NCBI RefSeq assembly: GCF_900177805.1 | Contig: NZ_FXAX01000001.1 | Span: 2,108,001-2,172,000, forward strand | DNA: 64,000 nt | DNA from: Fibrobacter sp. UWB13 | GTDB taxonomy: Bacteria > Fibrobacterota > Fibrobacteria > Fibrobacterales > Fibrobacteraceae | Direction: 5' to 3' | Shown: piece after piece, positions 50,941 to 63,928 of the stretch | Position numbering within the stretch: position 1 is the first letter of the stretch | Layout of the letters: each line of letters opens with the position of its first letter | Position numbers and translations under genes: made by a program | The notes under the pieces: model-generated | Seen by the model: the letters and a program-made list of their open reading frames with translations, nothing else | Databases searched by the model: none | Told to the model about the DNA's origin: nothing

Positions 50941-50977
50941 ACCCTACTTTCCTATTGGACTAGTAGGGTTTTGTTTT
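50941..50977 (+). terminator. Intrinsic terminator after the WYL gene
   Basis: ACCCTACT and AGTAGGGT form a perfect 8-bp stem with a 13-nt loop, then TTTGTTTTT. It lies 90 nt after the WYL stop. If the metY promoter is upstream of it, it could also act as an attenuator. Confidence 0.75.
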
Positions 50978-51001
50978 TAAATTATGCACATCAAACGAAC
51001 G

Positions 51002-51185
51002 AGGCACCCCGAAAGGGAAAAGCCTGGAGGATTTCGCTATGCGATGTCGAATGTGTAACCAAGCTGAAGGCGGGCGGGCCTAATACCGCCAAAATTTAAC
51101 GCTCAGAATTGAGCAAAACTATTAACTATCGCGTCGCCCGACGCCAACAGTAACAAAACGTTCGGGCGAACGCGAAAATTTCGCG
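51002..51185 (+). promoter_or_regulatory. Structured leader of metY-cysK
   Basis: The leader holds a nested stem (AGGC...CCCGAAAGGG...GCCT, 51002-51024), a Cys-containing mini-ORF, GGCGG/CCGCC, GCGTCG-CC-CGACGC (51131-51144), CGTTCG-GG-CGAACG (51159-51172) and the perfect palindrome CGCGAAAATTTCGCG (51171-51185). No known riboswitch core was recognised. The density of stems between the mini-ORF and the metY start suggests control by the leader. Confidence 0.5.
51039..51083 (+). CDS. Cys-containing leader peptide of metY-cysK
   Basis: ATG at 51039 follows a GGAGG site by eight bases and encodes MRCRMCNQAEGGRA, with two Cys and two Met codons in the first six. It lies 130 nt before the metY start, inside a region of stable stems. 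By analogy with the Cys-rich leader of the second sulfur operon, it probably senses charging of tRNA-Cys or tRNA-Met. No U-run terminator follows it, so control may be at translation or by Rho. Confidence 0.5.
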   Translation: MRCRMCNQAEGGRA

Positions 51186-51212
51186 CCAAGCGCACAAAAG
51201 GATTTAAATAAT

Positions 51213-55619: not shown

Positions 55620-56480
<861 letters not shown>

Positions 56481-56498
56481 TTAGGATTTTCCTATAGA

Positions 56499-56510
56499 AA
56501 CGCTAGGCAA
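56499..56510. repeat. 12-nt repeat AACGCTAGGCAA, copy 1
   Basis: An exact copy of AACGCTAGGCAA lies in the NifH-like leader and a second at 56759-56770. Both lie in the 411-nt divergent region and could be binding sites for a shared regulator. Apart from these, a palindrome and a small hairpin, the gap holds nothing convincing. Confidence 0.45.
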
Positions 56511-56758
56511 GAACAAGTTTAGAATTTGCGTCTACCCTTTTCAATACTTTTTTAGCCCATTTCGTCACAATTATTCTTTTTTGTGCGTTGCTATAAAAAC
56601 TTTTTATAACCCCATTCAGCGGGAATCTATTGCACGCCCAGAAAAAACATTTTTTTTAATTTTCACCCCTTGTTTCATATTGTCTTTCGCTATACCGCTT
56701 TTTAAATTTTTGCCCGAACTTCTTCGACAGGGAAGTAAAAGAATTAATCACACAACAG

Positions 56759-56770
56759 AACGCTAGGCAA
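56759..56770. repeat. 12-nt repeat AACGCTAGGCAA, copy 2
   Basis: The second exact copy, 106 nt before the NifB-like start codon and just upstream of the nested palindrome. Confidence 0.45.
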
Positions 56771-56790
56771 ACCGTTCATCATCTTCCACA

Positions 56791-56820
56791 TAAACTAAAT
56801 CGGTATTTACCGCTAGTTTA
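56791..56820 (+). promoter_or_regulatory. Nested palindrome upstream of the NifB-like gene
   Basis: TAAACTA and TAGTTTA flank CGGT-ATTT-ACCG, 56 nt before the start codon. A small hairpin CAAGGC-6-GCCTTG follows (56824-56841). It has the form of an operator for a dimeric regulator. Confidence 0.5.
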
Positions 56821-56876
56821 GCGCAAGGCTTTTATGCCTTGTGTTTACCACGAATCTTTTGCCTTTGTGAGGTTTT

Positions 56877-57749
56877 ATGGCAATCGATCAAGAAACAGTT
56901 TTTAGAGAGCACCCCTGCTTTGGCGCATGCAAGAATCGTAAAGGGCGTATCCATTTGCCCGTCGCTCCGGGTTGTAACATCGAATGCCGTTTTTGCGACC
57001 GTCGCATCAACGAAGACGCACAAGTTCCGGGAAATACAAGTAAAGTTATCAAACCGGAAGAAGCATGTGGCTATATTCGCAAGGCTCTTGAATTCGTACC
57101 GGATCTTACTACGGTGGGTATTGCTGGCCCTGGCGACACGCTCGCGACACCTTTTGCACTGGATACTTTCCGCCTCGTCAAAAAGGAATTTCCAAACCTG
57201 ATTCGTTGCATGAGCACAAACGGACTTTTGCTGAACGACAAGGCAGACGAAGTCATTGACGTGGGCATCGATACGCTTACGGTCACGGTGAACGCCGTTG
57301 ACCCAGAAATCGAAGCAATGATCAATGCGAGAATTTTCTACCACGGCAAGACCTACACGGGTGTCGAAGCCGCTGAAATCTTGATTCACAACCAGCTGGA
57401 AGGCATTCGCAAGGTTGCAAAAAGCGGGACACTCGTGAAAGTGAATACGGTTCTTTGCCCAGGCATCAACGACAACCATATCGAAGATGTGGCCGCTACA
57501 GTCCGCGAAGCGGGAGCGATTATATACAACATCATTCCGCTGATTCCGCAAAACGGATTCAAGGATCTTCCGGCCCCGACTCCGAAGGGACTCGCAATTG
57601 CACAGGAACAGGCCGGCGTATTTATCAATGTTTTCAAGCACTGCGCTCACTGCAGAGCAGATGCTGTTGGTGTTCCCGGCGTCTATGACGTTGGTTCACA
57701 AATCTACATGGATCGCATCCGTGTAAAGGAGACTTTCTCTCATGGCTAA
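56877..57749 (+). CDS. NifB-like radical SAM protein (MarB-like)
   Basis: The 290-residue protein has the NifB N-terminal HPCF and the radical SAM cluster motif Cys33-x3-Cys37-x2-Cys40 (PGCNIECRFC), then VGIAGPGDTLA, STNGL, EGIRKV, VKVNTVLCPGIND and the C-terminal HCAHCRADAVG with Cys256 and Cys259. NifB builds the carbide-centred 8Fe core (NifB-co). No NifX domain is fused. The start follows GAGG, and its stop overlaps the next gene by eight bases, so it is made with the catalytic subunits. Confidence 0.88.
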   Translation: MAIDQETVFREHPCFGACKNRKGRIHLPVAPGCNIECRFCDRRINEDAQVPGNTSKVIKPEEACGYIRKALEFVPDLTTVGIAGPGDTLATPFALDTFRLVKKEFPNLIRCMSTNGLLLNDKADEVIDVGIDTLTVTVNAVDPEIEAMINARIFYHGKTYTGVEAAEILIHNQLEGIRKVAKSGTLVKVNTVLCPGINDNHIEDVAATVREAGAIIYNIIPLIPQNGFKDLPAPTPKGLAIAQEQAGVFINVFKHCAHCRADAVGVPGVYDVGSQIYMDRIRVKETFSHG

Positions 57750-59052
57750 AATATTGGATCAGGCGCGCTACAAATGCGCTTTGGCAGCAATGCAGACCGT
57801 GCAATCAATTCCTGGAGCAATTCCCGTTTTGCATTCCGGTCCGGGATGCGCATCCAAGCTAAATGATAACAACGGCACGAGCGGCAGATTCAGCCCCAAC
57901 ATTTACCCTTGCACAAGTATCAGCGAAAAAGAAGTCGTGTTTGGCGGTGCAGACAAGTTGCGTTCAACCATCAGCAACGCTCTCAAAATCATCGATGCCG
58001 ACCTGTTCGTGGTTCTTTCCGGTTGCACGGGTGAAATCATTGGTGACGACATTCAAGAAGTCGCAGAAGAATTCGAAGATGCCGAAAAACCTGTCATCTG
58101 GGCAAAGACGCCGGGATTCAAGGGCAACAACTACATCGGCCATGATTGGATTTTGAAGAGCATCTTTGAACAGTATGTGAGAAAGTTCAAGGGCGAAGCC
58201 CCGAAGGAAAAGGGACTTGTCAACTTGTTCGCTGGCGTGCCACAGCAGGATCCGTATTGGCTTGGCAACTTGCGTGAACTCGAACGTCTTTTGCAGTCCA
58301 TCGGTCTCAAGACAAATACGATTTTCGGTTTTGGTCGCGGGCTTGAAAACTTGCAGAAGATTCCGGCGGCAGAATACACAATTCTAGTTTCGCCGTGGGC
58401 AGGCCTCGAAAGCGCCCAGTATCTCGAAAAGGAATTCAACATTCCGCTGTTGCACTACCCGATTTTGCCAATTGGTGCGGCCGAAACGACAAAGTTCCTC
58501 CGTACGGTCGCTGAATTCACGGGCGCTGACAAAGAACTCACGGAGTCCGTTATCCAGCAGAACGAAGCGCAGTTCTTCTACTACCTGGAACGTTACGCCG
58601 ATACGATTCTTGAAAGCCGTATCGTGAGCAAGCGTTTTACCGTCGTGAGCGAAGCCCAGTACGTAATTGCTGTGACCAAGTTTCTCGTGAACGACATGGG
58701 TCTTTTCCCGCAAAAGCTGTTCGTTACGGACGACACGCCGGAAGCATTCCGCGAAGAAGTCTCGCAAGAAACAAACACGCTGAATTACGACATCAAAACA
58801 AAAGTCGAGTTCACCACGGACGGTTTCGACCTCCAGAATCAAATCCGCAAAATGGACTTTGGCGGCTCCCCGCTCATCATCGGTTCGAACTGGGAAAAGA
58901 AACTCGCCCACGAACTCAAGGGCCATTTCGTGAACATCAGCTATCCGATGATCGAAAAAATCGTCATCAACTCGCATGTGGCGGGTTATTCCGGCGGTCT
59001 TTACTTGTTGGAAGACATCTACTCTGCAGCACTTTCCATGCTGAAAATTTAA
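57742..59052 (+). CDS. Nitrogenase-like component 1 subunit, NifK-like
   Basis: The 436-residue protein has Cys36 (SGPGCASKL), Cys57 (NIYPCTSIS) and Cys95 (LSGCTGEIIGDD) at the positions of the three P-cluster ligands, and VFGG after the second, as in NifK. It is shorter than nitrogenase NifK (about 520) and lacks the N-terminal extension. The gene-to-subunit naming is uncertain: it could be MarD or MarK. With the next gene it should form a two-component enzyme fed electrons by the NifH-like protein. Confidence 0.75.
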   Translation: MAKILDQARYKCALAAMQTVQSIPGAIPVLHSGPGCASKLNDNNGTSGRFSPNIYPCTSISEKEVVFGGADKLRSTISNALKIIDADLFVVLSGCTGEIIGDDIQEVAEEFEDAEKPVIWAKTPGFKGNNYIGHDWILKSIFEQYVRKFKGEAPKEKGLVNLFAGVPQQDPYWLGNLRELERLLQSIGLKTNTIFGFGRGLENLQKIPAAEYTILVSPWAGLESAQYLEKEFNIPLLHYPILPIGAAETTKFLRTVAEFTGADKELTESVIQQNEAQFFYYLERYADTILESRIVSKRFTVVSEAQYVIAVTKFLVNDMGLFPQKLFVTDDTPEAFREEVSQETNTLNYDIKTKVEFTTDGFDLQNQIRKMDFGGSPLIIGSNWEKKLAHELKGHFVNISYPMIEKIVINSHVAGYSGGLYLLEDIYSAALSMLKI

Positions 59053-59062
59053 GGAGGATCTA

Positions 59063-60532
59063 ATGCCATTTAATTTTAAAAATGCAAACGTCGGTGTTCG
59101 CGAAAACCGTCTTGGATCCATCACTGGATTTTCGGGCGACTTGGAAACGCTCGCACACCGCTCACAGTGCGGTTCCGTCAAGAATCGCGAACGTTGCTTT
59201 AGCCAATCCAGTTCTTGCCTTTCGGGTTGCGCTTTGGACCAGCTCATCAGTATCCGCAATGTGGCTGTCGTCTATCACGCTCCAGCCGGTTGCGTTGCAC
59301 TTGCACAAGGTGAAGATGTCAAATTCCGCCAACTCGCCGAACGCATTAACGAAAAGACAAATTCCGTTTACGTCTGCACGGACTTGAACGAAAACGATAC
59401 AGTCTTTGGCGCTATCGAAGCACTCCGCAAGGCAACGCAGTACACGTACGAAAAGTTCCACCCGGAAGCGATTTTCCTCTCGTCTTCTTGCGTATCGGGC
59501 GTGATTGGCGAAGACGTTGACGGTCTCGCCGACGAACTCGCAGATGAATACGATATTCCAATTATTCCAATCCATTGCGAAGGTTTCAAGAGCCGCATTT
59601 GGGCTAGCGGTTTCGATATCGCAGACCACGCCGTTTTGCAGGGCATCGTGAAGCCGCCTGAGAAGAAGAACAACAAGATTATCTTCAAGAACTTCTTTGA
59701 AAGCGCTCGCCCGCAGATTACGGAACTTTTCAAGGAAATCGGCGCAGAACCGCAATTCGTTTATTGTAACTCCACTGTCGAAGAACTTTCGCACTTGAGC
59801 GAAGCCCAAGCAATGGTTTGCATTTGCGGAACGCTCGGCACCTACCTCGGCAACGCCCTCGAAGAAACTTACGGTGTACCATATGTGCGTACGATTAACC
59901 CGAACGGCATTACCGGTTTTGAAACTTGGTTCCGCGCCATCGGCAAAACGATTGGCAAGGAAGCCGAAGTAGAACGTTACATCGAGCGCCAGCGCGCCAT
60001 TTACTTGCCGCAAATCGAAGAAGTCAAGAGGGAACTCAAGGGTCTTCGCGCCGTGATCGGTATGGGCCCGGGCTACACCTACGAAGTTTCGCGCGTATTG
60101 CAGGAACTCGGCATGGAAGTGGTTCACGGTCTTGCTTGGCATTATGACTACAAGTACGATAACGGCCAGATTCCGCCAGCACTCGAACATTTGCTGAAGA
60201 CATCGCCAAAGGGGCTCAAGCTCACTGTGGCTGACCAACAAAACTACGAAGTGATGAGCGTATTGAACTATCACAAGCCGGACATTTACTTTAGCCGTCA
60301 TCCAGGTTCAACCGTATGGGCCATCAAGCAGGGTTACGCAGCGCTCTTCGTCGCCGATGAATACATGATTTTCGGTTACGAAGGAACACTCAACTTTGCC
60401 AAGAGCATCCTCGATACCATCAAGAACCGTAGCTTTGAAAAGAGTCTTGCCGCTCGAATCAAGTTACCCTATACCAAGTGGTGGTACGAACAAGATACAG
60501 ACAAGTTCTTGAAGCCGGAAGGCGCAAGATAA
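59063..60532 (+). CDS. Nitrogenase-like component 1 subunit, NifD-like
   Basis: The 489-residue protein has Cys77 (YHAPAGCVAL), Cys105 (VYVCTDLNENDTVFG) and Cys143 (SSSCVSGVIGED) as probable P-cluster ligands, and HCEGFKSRIWASGF as in NifD. The region matching the NifD His442 loop reads ADEYMIFGYEG, so the usual FeMo-co His is not obvious. It also has four extra Cys near the N-terminus (Cys36, 45, 52 and 56, in QCGSVKNRERC and SSCLSGC). It starts 10 bases after the NifK-like gene with AGGAGG. Confidence 0.75.
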   Translation: MPFNFKNANVGVRENRLGSITGFSGDLETLAHRSQCGSVKNRERCFSQSSSCLSGCALDQLISIRNVAVVYHAPAGCVALAQGEDVKFRQLAERINEKTNSVYVCTDLNENDTVFGAIEALRKATQYTYEKFHPEAIFLSSSCVSGVIGEDVDGLADELADEYDIPIIPIHCEGFKSRIWASGFDIADHAVLQGIVKPPEKKNNKIIFKNFFESARPQITELFKEIGAEPQFVYCNSTVEELSHLSEAQAMVCICGTLGTYLGNALEETYGVPYVRTINPNGITGFETWFRAIGKTIGKEAEVERYIERQRAIYLPQIEEVKRELKGLRAVIGMGPGYTYEVSRVLQELGMEVVHGLAWHYDYKYDNGQIPPALEHLLKTSPKGLKLTVADQQNYEVMSVLNYHKPDIYFSRHPGSTVWAIKQGYAALFVADEYMIFGYEGTLNFAKSILDTIKNRSFEKSLAARIKLPYTKWWYEQDTDKFLKPEGAR

Positions 60533-60552: not shown

Positions 60553-60581
60553 TCTCCTGCGGGAATTTTTTCCGCAGGAGA
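60553..60581 (+). terminator. Intrinsic terminator of the nitrogenase-like operon
   Basis: TCTCCTGCGG-9-CCGCAGGAGA then TTTTTCT, 20 nt after the stop codon. Confidence 0.9.
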
Positions 60582-60693
60582 TTTTTCTATGCAACCAATT
60601 TCAGCTGAGTTTCAAATTCAAAAAAACACAGAAACAAAATGGCTATAGAAAATCGTTATCACCGGTTCTAGAAAAATAGTATAAAGAAATCTC

Positions 60694-60722
60694 TTGCCAA
60701 AACGAAAGGCTTTATCTAAATT
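60694..60722 (+). promoter_or_regulatory. Promoter of the second sulfur operon
   Basis: TTGCCA, 17 nt, TAAATT, about 30 nt upstream of the Cys-rich leader peptide. Between 60582 and 60690 nothing else is recognised. Confidence 0.65.
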
Positions 60723-60750
60723 AACCCACAAAAGAAATAGGATATAAAAA

Positions 60751-60813
60751 ATGAATTTCCCGTTCAATAGCTTAAATTTCGCTTGTTGTTGTCGATGTCG
60801 GACGGGCATCTAG
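60751..60813 (+). CDS. Cys-rich leader peptide of an attenuator
   Basis: ATG at 60751 with AGGA eight bases upstream encodes MNFPFNSLNFACCCRCRTGI, with three consecutive Cys codons and a fourth close by (60784-60798), then TAG. An intrinsic terminator starts 27 nt later and the cystathionine enzyme gene 128 nt later. This is the layout of a transcription attenuator that reads tRNA-Cys charging: stalling at TGT codons under cysteine shortage would alter folding and allow readthrough. Cys-run leader peptides are known in other phyla. Confidence 0.7.
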   Translation: MNFPFNSLNFACCCRCRTGI

Positions 60814-60839
60814 TTTTTAGGCTATTCTTTTAAACAGAT

Positions 60840-60877
60840 TCCCGCTCGGTTTTATGTTCCGTAGCGGGATTTTTTTA
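60840..60877 (+). terminator. Attenuator hairpin
   Basis: TCCCGCT, 16 nt, AGCGGGA then TTTTTTT, lying inside the leader between the Cys-rich ORF and the first enzyme gene. GACGGGC at the end of the leader ORF is partly complementary to the left arm and could form a competing stem. Confidence 0.75.
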
Positions 60878-60940
60878 TTCAAAAAAATTTAAACCACAAA
60901 GGCGCTAGCATTTAATAGCGTCATAGGAGATTATTATCTT

Positions 60941-62098
60941 ATGTCAAACTTCAACAATATCGAAACAAAACTCATTCACGGTGGCATTGATGGCGACAAA
61001 ACAACAGGAGCTGTAAACGTCCCTATCTACCAGACTTCCACCTACAAGCAGACAGGCCTTGGTGAAAACACGGGTTGGGAATATTCCCGCACAGGGAACC
61101 CGACGCGCGCAGCGTTGGAAGCGCTGATTGCAGAACTTGAAGGAGGAGTCGCAGGCTTTGCATTTGCAAGCGGCATGGCTGCAACAACAACCGTCCTTTC
61201 GCTTTTTAAGCAAGGAGACCGCATCATCATTTCGAGCAATGTCTATGGCGGCACTTTCCGCGTTTTGGACAAAGTTTTCAAGAATCTCGGCATCAGTTAT
61301 TCCATCGAAGACACGACCGATTTGAAATTGCTTGAATCCAAAATAACACCCGATGTGAAAGCATTCTTTGTCGAAAGCCCTGCAAATCCGCTCTTGACGG
61401 TAACGGACTTGGCTGGCGTTGCCGCAATTGCCAAGAAGCACAACATTTTAACCATTGTCGATAACACATTTATGACGCCGTATCTGCAGCGTCCGATTGA
61501 ATTGGGCGCCGACATCGTCGTGCATTCTGCGACAAAGTATTTAGGCGGTCACAGCGACTTGGTGGCAGGCCTTGCTGTTGTCAATTCCAAGGAGCTTGCC
61601 GAAAGACTCGCTTTTACGCAGAACGCAACCGGTGCTGTACTCGGACCTTTTGATTCGTTCCTCTTAATTCGCGGCATCAAGACGCTTGGCGTCCGCTTGG
61701 ATCGCCATACTGAAAATGCCGAAACCATCGCAAAGTATCTCGAAAAGCACGAAGCCGTAAAGCACGTTTATTATCCGGGACTCCCGACAGCACAAGGCTA
61801 CGAAATCAACAAGAAACAGGCCAAGAACGGTGGCGCCATGATTTCGTTCGAACTTCGTGAAAATTACGATATCAAAAAATTCTTCAAAGCTCTAAAACTC
61901 GTTTCTCTTGCTGAAAGCTTGGGCGGCGTCGAAAGCCTCGTATGCCATCCAGCCACAATGACGCACGCATCTATCCCAAAGGAAATTCGCGAAAAAGTCG
62001 GCATCACTGACGGGCTCATTCGCTTATCCGTGGGCATTGAAAAAGTTGATGACATCATCGCAGATGTTAACGCAGCCATTGAAGCCGCAAAAGCATAA
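60941..62098 (+). CDS. Cystathionine gamma-lyase/synthase family enzyme (MccB/MetB-like)
   Basis: The 385-residue PLP enzyme has SNVYGGTFR, the PLP Lys in HSATKYLGGHSDLVAG, SLGGVESLVCHPATMTH and SVGIEKVDDI, the standard Cys/Met metabolism family pattern, and lacks the MetY insert. It could be a cystathionine gamma-lyase (cystathionine to cysteine) or gamma-synthase. The gene order with a cysteine-synthase-like gene and a methyltransferase gene recalls the B. subtilis mccAB region, which favours the lyase. The Cys leader upstream also fits cysteine supply. Confidence 0.85.
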   Translation: MSNFNNIETKLIHGGIDGDKTTGAVNVPIYQTSTYKQTGLGENTGWEYSRTGNPTRAALEALIAELEGGVAGFAFASGMAATTTVLSLFKQGDRIIISSNVYGGTFRVLDKVFKNLGISYSIEDTTDLKLLESKITPDVKAFFVESPANPLLTVTDLAGVAAIAKKHNILTIVDNTFMTPYLQRPIELGADIVVHSATKYLGGHSDLVAGLAVVNSKELAERLAFTQNATGAVLGPFDSFLLIRGIKTLGVRLDRHTENAETIAKYLEKHEAVKHVYYPGLPTAQGYEINKKQAKNGGAMISFELRENYDIKKFFKALKLVSLAESLGGVESLVCHPATMTHASIPKEIREKVGITDGLIRLSVGIEKVDDIIADVNAAIEAAKA

Positions 62099-62108
62099 GG
62101 AACAAGAT

Positions 62109-63020
62109 ATGCATTACTACGAATCCATGAAATCCCTGATTGGAAAGACACCGCTCGTAAAGCTCACGCATGTTGGAGTTCCTGAAGGCGTAAATTTATT
62201 CGTAAAACTTGAATTGTGGAATCCTTCGGGCAGCGTAAAAGACCGCGCCGGCCTTTATATGGTCGAAGACGCGTTCGCCAAAGGGACGCTCAAACCTGGC
62301 GGAACGATTATCGAAGCAACCGCAGGCAATACCGGGCTTGGAATTGCATTTGCAGCATTGAACCGCGGAGTGCGTGTCATTTTTGTAGTACCGACAAAAT
62401 TTTCGCAAGAAAAGCAGACGCTTTTGCGTGCGCTTGGCGCAGAACTCATCAACACCCCGCGTGAAGAAGGCATGCTCGGCGCCGAAAAGAAAGCAGAAGA
62501 ACTGCTGAAGCAAATTCCGGATTCCGTTTCTCTCAGACAATTCCACAACATGGCAAATCCGCGCGCCCATTATGAAACGACAGGACCTGAAATTTACGAC
62601 GATCTCGATGGCAACGTCGATTATGTTATTGCAGGCGCAGGAAGCGGCGGAACGTTCTCGGGCATTCTCAAGGCGCTCAAGGAACGCAACCCCAAAATTC
62701 AAGGCGTGCTCGCTGACCCTGTAGGCTCTACAATGGGCGGTGGCGAACATGGAGACTACAACATCGAAGGAATCGGAAACGATTTTATTGCAGACACTAT
62801 GGACATGTCGCTTGTGGACCGCGTCATCAAAATTAACGATGACGACGCTTTCGGTGGTTCCCGTGAACTCGCGCAAAAAGAGGGAATTTTTGCGGGATCT
62901 TCTTCGGGCGGCGCTTTCGCAGCAGCCAAGAAACTGATTGCATCGGGCGCTCGCGGGAACATTGTCTTTGTAGCCCCAGACCGTGGCGATCGTTACTTCA
63001 GCAAAGGTTTATACAAATAA
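62109..63020 (+). CDS. Cysteine synthase/cystathionine beta-synthase-like enzyme (MccA-like)
   Basis: The 303-residue PLP enzyme has WNPSGSVKDRAG (PLP Lys), EATAGNTGLGIAFAA, the phosphate loop GAGSGGTFSG and GSSSGGAFAA. It is more like MccA/CBS, which joins homocysteine and an activated serine to cystathionine, than the CysK encoded at 52.5 kb (for example EATAGNTG against EPTSGNTG). The ATG at 62109 follows AAGGA; a frame upstream overlaps the preceding gene. With the previous gene it would make a complete reverse transsulfuration route. Confidence 0.83.
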   Translation: MHYYESMKSLIGKTPLVKLTHVGVPEGVNLFVKLELWNPSGSVKDRAGLYMVEDAFAKGTLKPGGTIIEATAGNTGLGIAFAALNRGVRVIFVVPTKFSQEKQTLLRALGAELINTPREEGMLGAEKKAEELLKQIPDSVSLRQFHNMANPRAHYETTGPEIYDDLDGNVDYVIAGAGSGGTFSGILKALKERNPKIQGVLADPVGSTMGGGEHGDYNIEGIGNDFIADTMDMSLVDRVIKINDDDAFGGSRELAQKEGIFAGSSSGGAFAAAKKLIASGARGNIVFVAPDRGDRYFSKGLYK

Positions 63021-63058
63021 CATAAAAAAATTCATCTTTAATTAGAGTGCACAAGTTT

Positions 63059-63928
63059 ATGATTAGCAAAACAGCGCTTTTATGCGCTCTTGCCCGAGCT
63101 GTCCACACTCACGCTAAAAGTGAAAAAATTTTTGAAGACGAATTTGCACAGGATTTTGTGGGTTTGAAGGAATATCGCCACGCACGCAATCTTGCAAGGC
63201 AGTTCCTTCCTGCGAAAAAGTCGAAGCCCAAAGATTACCCGGCTAAGAATTTTATTGACCAATACCTTCTCCCAATCATTCTTCCACGAAATCGATTTGC
63301 AGAAGACATTGTCGATGCCAAGCAAAAAACAGGAGACGTGCAATACGTTCTCTTGGGTGCGGGCCTAGATTCCTTTGCGCTTAGGAACAAAAGTCAAAAC
63401 GTAGATGTTTTTGAACTTGATTTGTACGAAACTCAAGTCTTCAAAATCGAGCGAACACGACAACTTTTCACAAAGAAGCGCCCAAAAGTTCACTTTGTAG
63501 AAATTGATTTCAACAAGGATAGCATCATCAGCAGATTGACAAACGCTGGTTTTAATCCGAAAAAACGCTCCGTCTTTTCGATTCTCGGCGTATCCTACTA
63601 CATTCCTATTGAAATCTTTTTCAAGACGATTGCGGAAATTTCTAAGATAGCAGCACCCAATAGTGCAATAGTATTCGATTACTACGAAAAAGAGCGGGAC
63701 AGTGCGGACAGCATAACCAAAATCAGCCGCTTAAAACAAATAACAGCATCGTGCGGCGAGTGTATGGTTGAGGGATACGATCCCGTTCAAGTTGAAAATT
63801 TGGCCAGGAAATCGGGTATCCAATATTGTCACGATCTTTCTCCCAAAGATATCGACGATGCCTTTTTCAGCACATCAACTGGATTGTCCGCATTCGAGGG
63901 CGTTCATCTGATGTATTGCGGTTTGTAA
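63059..63928 (+). CDS. SAM-dependent methyltransferase, TIGR00027/LCM-like
   Basis: The 289-residue protein starts MISKTALLCALARAVHT, the usual opening of the TIGR00027 family, and has the SAM-binding LLGAGLDSFALR followed by ELDLYETQ. The C-terminal half has GVSYYIPIEIFFKTIAEI. The substrate is unknown; leucine carboxyl methyltransferase-like proteins methylate small acids or proteins. A GTG four codons earlier is a possible start. It follows the MccA-like gene by 38 bases. A methyltransferase gene also belongs to the B. subtilis mtnN-yrrT-mccAB operon, but of another family. Confidence 0.78.
   Translation: MISKTALLCALARAVHTHAKSEKIFEDEFAQDFVGLKEYRHARNLARQFLPAKKSKPKDYPAKNFIDQYLLPIILPRNRFAEDIVDAKQKTGDVQYVLLGAGLDSFALRNKSQNVDVFELDLYETQVFKIERTRQLFTKKRPKVHFVEIDFNKDSIISRLTNAGFNPKKRSVFSILGVSYYIPIEIFFKTIAEISKIAAPNSAIVFDYYEKERDSADSITKISRLKQITASCGECMVEGYDPVQVENLARKSGIQYCHDLSPKDIDDAFFSTSTGLSAFEGVHLMYCGL

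Follow-up and report, generated by a model that had tools for sequence, protein, structure and literature searches.

A very probable cysteine-sensing transcription attenuator in front of transsulfuration-type genes in Fibrobacter

What is the role of a very short reading frame with a run of cysteine codons, followed by a terminator-like hairpin, directly in front of genes for sulfur amino acid enzymes? The question was raised by a 64,000-nucleotide stretch of the Fibrobacter sp. UWB13 genome (contig NZ_FXAX01000001.1, positions 2,108,001 to 2,172,000), termed the window throughout. All coordinates are positions in the window and refer to the plus strand unless stated otherwise. A previous sequence-only reading had proposed a cysteine attenuator at this locus. 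The conserved parts of the leader, its association with particular genes and a pair of mutually exclusive RNA pairings all support this proposal, and from these sequence features the element is very probably a cysteine-sensing, ribosome-mediated transcription attenuator.

Leader ORF, terminator and downstream genes

The leader ORF (60751..60813) starts with ATG at 60751, encodes MNFPFNSLNFACCCRCRTGI and ends with TAG at 60811-60813. Exactly as described before, its 20 residues comprise three neighbouring cysteines and a fourth one, which correspond to codons 12, 13, 14 and 16. The three adjacent TGT codons (60784..60792), i.e. codons 12-14, are most likely the sensing codons. A Shine-Dalgarno sequence AGGA (60739..60742), conserved in most relatives, precedes the start codon; the locus consequently offers a short leader ORF of a predicted translated type, with a ribosome-binding site and adjacent codons for the product amino acid. 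The window holds 904 short ATG ORFs, and no other has two or three adjacent cysteines followed within 100 bases by a run of six or more T. After block shuffling, the windows contained on average 0.8 ORFs with three adjacent cysteines and 0.0 of these with a T run.

An intrinsic terminator (60840..60876) is located between the leader ORF and the structural genes. Its stem (60840-60869) is formed by the arms TCCCGCTCGG (60840-60849) and CCG-T-AGCGGGA (60859-60869) around a 9-base loop, and the seven T reported to follow the hairpin were confirmed at 60870-60876. The hairpin is GC-rich as claimed, but the stem comprises 10 pairs with one bulge instead of 7 bp. A folding energy of -16.7 kcal/mol was calculated (z -4.2), and none of 200 shuffled sequences was equally stable. 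In line with the earlier proposal, no promoter was found from the hairpin to the enzyme gene. The sole forward promoter-like site, TTGCCA and TAAATT separated by 17 bases (60694..60722), is located upstream of the leader ORF. With 9 of 12 matching positions it is weak in the window; relatives carry cleaner boxes at the same place (TTGACA-17-TATATT).

The first regulated gene (60941..62098) encodes a PLP enzyme of Cys/Met metabolism of the cystathionine gamma-lyase/gamma-synthase type (PF01053, E 2e-157). Near-equal scores were obtained with the models for CGS and bifunctional CGL, both below the curated cut-offs, and the closest solved structures were again CGS and bifunctional CGL. We named the gene CGL partly on its GGVESL motif, the Glu of which is typical of gamma-active enzymes. 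The second regulated gene (62112..63020) encodes a protein of the cysteine synthase or cystathionine beta-synthase type (PALP, PF00291), for which the searches do not separate CysK from CBS activity. The PF01053 and PF00291 pair (CGL or CGS, CBS or CysK) places the downstream genes in the metabolism of cysteine, the amino acid presumably sensed. In predicted activity the pair presumably resembles the mccAB reverse-transsulfuration pair of Bacillus. A probable third gene (63047..63928) encodes a SAM-dependent methyltransferase that scored above the curated cut-off of TIGR00027, and in other genomes relatives of this methyltransferase are preceded by a separate Cys leader.

Conservation of the leader in the genus and beyond

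Lack of conservation of the ORF or its Cys codons in relatives had been named beforehand as an outcome that would refute the proposal; conservation was found. Of 61 genomes in a DNA search, 22 carried the leader region, and these all belong to the same genus. We then surveyed 80 genomes of the genus, with named relatives including Fibrobacter succinogenes and Fibrobacter sp. records, by a pattern search and two covariance models and cross-tabulated the results with a CGL protein search. A leader was found 28-70 bases 5' of the coding region in 50 of 51 CGL copies, with an adjacent Cys pair in every leader read. All 72 model matches were located either before CGL (50, plus 2 with a contig cutting the gene) or before the TIGR00027 methyltransferase (20). 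Genomes without CGL possessed leaders before the methyltransferase only, or none. Among the exceptions, G093:C34 is without leader (L158). At locus L184 the CGL gene directly follows an upstream gene, metY-like by reading; at L182 the leader ORF is lost and a decayed hairpin is left; at L186 no leader was found.

Three forms of the leader were distinguished. Type 1, the form of the window, ends with CRCR[TA]G[DI] or with CRC and TGA. Type 2 ends with [GD]RC and TGA immediately after; it mostly stands before the methyltransferase and was found before CGL in two genomes (G018 and G089). Leaders of a third form (L155, L156, L160), with MFQSFKTICCSVCCFRRC or a similar peptide, precede CGL or the methyltransferase. 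Terminator pairs were kept in 96% of the cells in type 1 (20 leaders) and in 100% in type 2. Outside of the genus, the type 1 model detected one more genus of the family (G156), with MIRLCVCNCCIRCRTSD before the methyltransferase (L157). A weak match in G060 turned out to be a bare terminator after a gene and was rejected, and matches to the pattern CGATGTYGRN{0,1}CGGGC that had no Cys-run ORF were discarded.

We consider this genus-wide conservation decisive for the reality of the predicted leader. It also bears on the view that a constitutive partial terminator or a leftover 3' end lies beside a chance ORF, without any regulation. Intrinsic terminators are indeed common, and another one is found upstream at 60553-60581. 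Nevertheless, about 50 species-level genomes have preserved the whole set of leader, Shine-Dalgarno sequence, Cys run, antiterminator and terminator, and the set recurs in two gene contexts, which makes such a coincidence exceedingly improbable.

Comparing 50 leaders, 36 different peptides were found, each with at least two adjacent Cys codons, while the upstream residues and the choice between TGT and TGC differed. No NCBIfam model was found for the leader peptides. In 54 distinct leaders the Cys codons 5' of the motif CGATGT were 139 TGT and 19 TGC; the Cys within CGATGT was TGT in all 54, a count that the search pattern itself partly dictated. Several leaders (L051, L060, L122) have lost the peptide tail RTGI/RAGD but retain the RNA.

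This last observation supports an RNA-level constraint on codon 16. One correction concerns the fourth cysteine, which the sequence-only reading had listed with the run: Cys16 sits in the invariant CGATGT beside the antiterminator strand, and since a stall at this codon would place the ribosome edge at about 60809 and mask strand 2 of the antiterminator, codon 16 is probably not a sensor. The motif CGATGTYGR, followed by CGGGC or CGAGC (60793-60807 in the window), is kept across variants with different pairing, and the pairings explain its invariance only partly.

Two other kinds of sensor have to be weighed against these data. In the first, the Cys-rich nascent peptide itself would bind a metal or sense redox state or sulfide and arrest the ribosome, with formation of the same antiterminator. 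Metal binding and reaction with oxidants are possible for Cys-rich peptides, and all 54 leaders retain an Arg-Cys pair where CGATGT lies. However, the codons of this pair are always CGA TGT, which suggests that the constraint acts on the RNA. Moreover, number and spacing of the cysteines vary (2 to 5 before CGATGT, in arrangements such as CC, CCC, CCWC, CCFC and CCSVCC) in a way not expected of a binding site, some leaders lack the tail that follows CGATGT, and in one MAG (L175) the peptide stops directly after CCCCWS. We therefore regard a peptide sensor as very unlikely. In the second, a ligand-binding riboswitch or a T-box would be at work and the short ORF would be incidental. A conserved RNA with terminator and antiterminator before sulfur genes would suit such an element, but the Cys codons stay in frame while the sequence around them changes. 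Furthermore, Rfam covariance models gave no match in the whole window, none at E values up to 1 in 60600-60960 and none in 20 CGL-bearing loci, and a T-box motif was absent from the related loci. A riboswitch or T-box is extremely unlikely on these grounds.

Antiterminator and predicted mechanism

Strand 2 of the antiterminator, TCGGACGGGCATCTAGTTT (60798..60816), pairs with strand 3, AAACAGATTCCCGCTCGG (60832..60849), which includes the 5' arm of the terminator. Antiterminator and terminator are consequently mutually exclusive. For the window antiterminator -16.4 kcal/mol was calculated (z -2.8). Folding of the RNA from 60798 before the 3' arm exists yielded the antiterminator as a long hairpin, and addition of the 3' arm yielded the terminator. 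The antiterminator fold was found in 50 of 50 distinct leaders, with mean energies of -18.1 kcal/mol for type 1 and -12.6 kcal/mol for type 2; in some type 1 leaders a mismatch interrupts it (-13.2 kcal/mol). In type 1, 83% of the antiterminator cells were paired versus 34-57% when the strands were slid.

Type 1 strands paired even better with type 2 arms. Since duplex energies alone separate the types poorly, covariation was argued from joint changes of leader strand and terminator arm, namely GGGCGGG with CCCGCTC, ACGGGCG with CGCCCGT and AACGAGC with GCTCGTT. These coupled changes from one variant to another are the best evidence for the predicted antiterminator. Using permutations, own strand pairs scored better than re-dealt pairs in all but 4 of 10000 cases, a figure uncorrected for relatedness. 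Covariation within type 1 was weak, with 1 pair changed on both sides and 124 of 500 shuffles as high. A protector (1:2) hairpin GATGTC/GGCATC (60794..60810; -7.7 kcal/mol) was also found. In the window this hairpin alone was not better than shuffles (z -1.0); type 2 leaders form a stable related hairpin with one co-varying pair (G-C/A-U). Antiterminator, protector hairpin and the second target gene were identified here and were absent from the earlier proposal.

From these parts we infer the positions of the ribosome and cysteine as the signal. Counted from the first base of its P-site codon, a ribosome usually extends about 15-16 bases in the 3' direction, and in distinct leaders the first Cys codon of the run lies 14-26 bases 5' of strand 2. 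RNA polymerase would start about 20 bases 5' of the leader ORF, with the ribosome trailing behind. With ample Cys-tRNA, the ribosome would reach the TAG codon and cover strand 2 (60798-60816), up to about 60824. The terminator (60840-60876) could then form and halt transcription short of the enzyme gene. Under a shortage of Cys-tRNA, the ribosome would stall on Cys codons 12-14 with its front edge at about 60797-60803; with codon 12 in the A site, the edge would be near 60797, just short of strand 2. Strand 2 would then be wholly or largely free to pair with 60832-60849, the terminator would be blocked, and the CGL, the CBS/CysK-type and probably the methyltransferase genes would be transcribed. 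We favour ribosome-mediated attenuation by cysteine because the antiterminator strand would be free during a stall at the first Cys codon and masked by a ribosome that has reached the stop codon. Without translation of the leader, the protector hairpin (60794-60810) may hold strand 2, and termination would be favoured again. As the terminator of the window is slightly more stable than the antiterminator, the outcome would depend on timing.

Related attenuators, a putative operator and neighbouring sulfur genes

The kind of attenuator is known, and its phylum and target genes appear to be new. The uORFC-8-2 motif before cysS in Rhodobacterales was predicted, and only predicted, to be a cysteine attenuator with an intrinsic terminator (PMC8632094). 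It likewise combines a short ORF, here with two Cys codons in tandem, and an intrinsic terminator, but belongs to another bacterial class, precedes a cysteinyl-tRNA synthetase gene and carries its Cys codons inside the first stem. In the Fibrobacter element CGL is the downstream gene, the Cys run precedes the protector stem and no Rfam match was obtained. For Actinobacteria, cysteine leader peptides without a conserved terminator were predicted (PMC1262725). Mycobacterial polycysteine ORFs are cysteine-responsive according to the title of Canestrari et al. (2020), cited in PMC13236596, and they are described as leaderless and as acting by translation attenuation. Their Cys run is likewise located near the end of a short ORF, before cysteine genes or cbs; in contrast to these leaderless ORFs without a conserved terminator, the Fibrobacter leader has a Shine-Dalgarno sequence and an intrinsic terminator. 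In the trp/his-type attenuators of Proteobacteria, too, a leader peptide with regulatory codons is followed by protector, antiterminator and terminator; amino acid, phylum and sequence differ, and the likeness is one of layout. By analogy, the Fibrobacter element would work like these known cysteine, trp and his attenuators, a functional likeness without a claim of homology.

In other phyla, poly-Cys leaders likewise precede the CGL orthologues of a Spirochaetes MAG (L188), of Parasporobacterium (L204) and of Ruminococcus and Oscillospiraceae (L247, L234). They share a short ORF with 2-5 adjacent Cys codons, an intrinsic terminator and the orthologous gene. Because they have no CGATGTYGR core and an unrelated peptide sequence, their origin was probably independent.

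No paper describing a cysteine attenuator in Fibrobacter was found in the searchable literature. If our reading is true, this would be the first amino-acid attenuator described in Fibrobacterota, to our knowledge and as far as the searchable papers go, and it would join the small number of cysteine attenuators that use an intrinsic terminator; it has two target genes and an anatomy clear enough for testing. It would also link an uncharacterised SAM-dependent methyltransferase to cysteine supply. In F. succinogenes S85, sulfur-metabolism genes rise with growth rate despite cysteine in the medium, which its authors called unclear (PMC6204037). Because the attenuator would sense the charging of Cys-tRNA and not external cysteine, it would explain this in part, in a way open to test, should S85 carry the leader.

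Initiation may be controlled as well. A degenerate 17-bp inverted repeat, CCCACAAAAGAAATAGG (60725..60741, no strand assigned), is located just 3' of the -10 box, overlaps the ribosome-binding AGGA and is intact at the leader promoter in most relatives. Its position after the -10 box suggests extra control of initiation by a putative operator. The consensus CCTAY-N7-RTAGG is common to three sulfur-gene promoters in the window (50951-50967, 56491-56507 and 60725-60741 with 0, 1 and 1 mismatches, respectively). Outside genes, intact copies precede metY and, elsewhere in the genome, a LysR-type and a sufB-like gene, both named from reading their translations; a one-mismatch copy adjoins the nifH-like gene. 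The repeat was also found in L188 and L204. It was not over-represented genome-wide, with 7 places versus 19 for the reversed control. As the motifs of IscR and CymR are stated to be similar (PMC3828012), an Rrf2 protein is a candidate, no more, for binding the repeat. A broader picture, which we hold possible rather than probable, is that cysteine attenuators arose several times before CGL (Fibrobacter, spirochaete, Parasporobacterium, Ruminococcus) and that in Fibrobacter the attenuator and the operator CCTAY-N7-RTAGG, perhaps bound by an Rrf2-type repressor like CymR or IscR, form a two-layer cysteine/Fe-S circuit including metY, the nitrogenase-like cluster, suf and the methyltransferase.

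Further features were observed in the window. The leader of a metY-like/cysK-like operon (50980-51205) showed a strong RNA fold (-72.7 kcal/mol, z -3.9, reached by 0 of 200 shuffles). It is conserved in 8 of 41 genomes searched, gave no Rfam match and is possibly an undescribed regulatory RNA. At 55620-60532, adjoining the sulfur genes, a nitrogenase-like cluster was found, with a NifH-like gene on the minus strand and, in divergent orientation, a NifB-like radical SAM gene together with two PF00148 genes resembling nitrogenase component 1; it is perhaps a methylthio-alkane-reductase-like system. A strong terminator with 13 pairs (60553-60581) ends the nitrogenase-like transcript just before the promoter of the attenuator.
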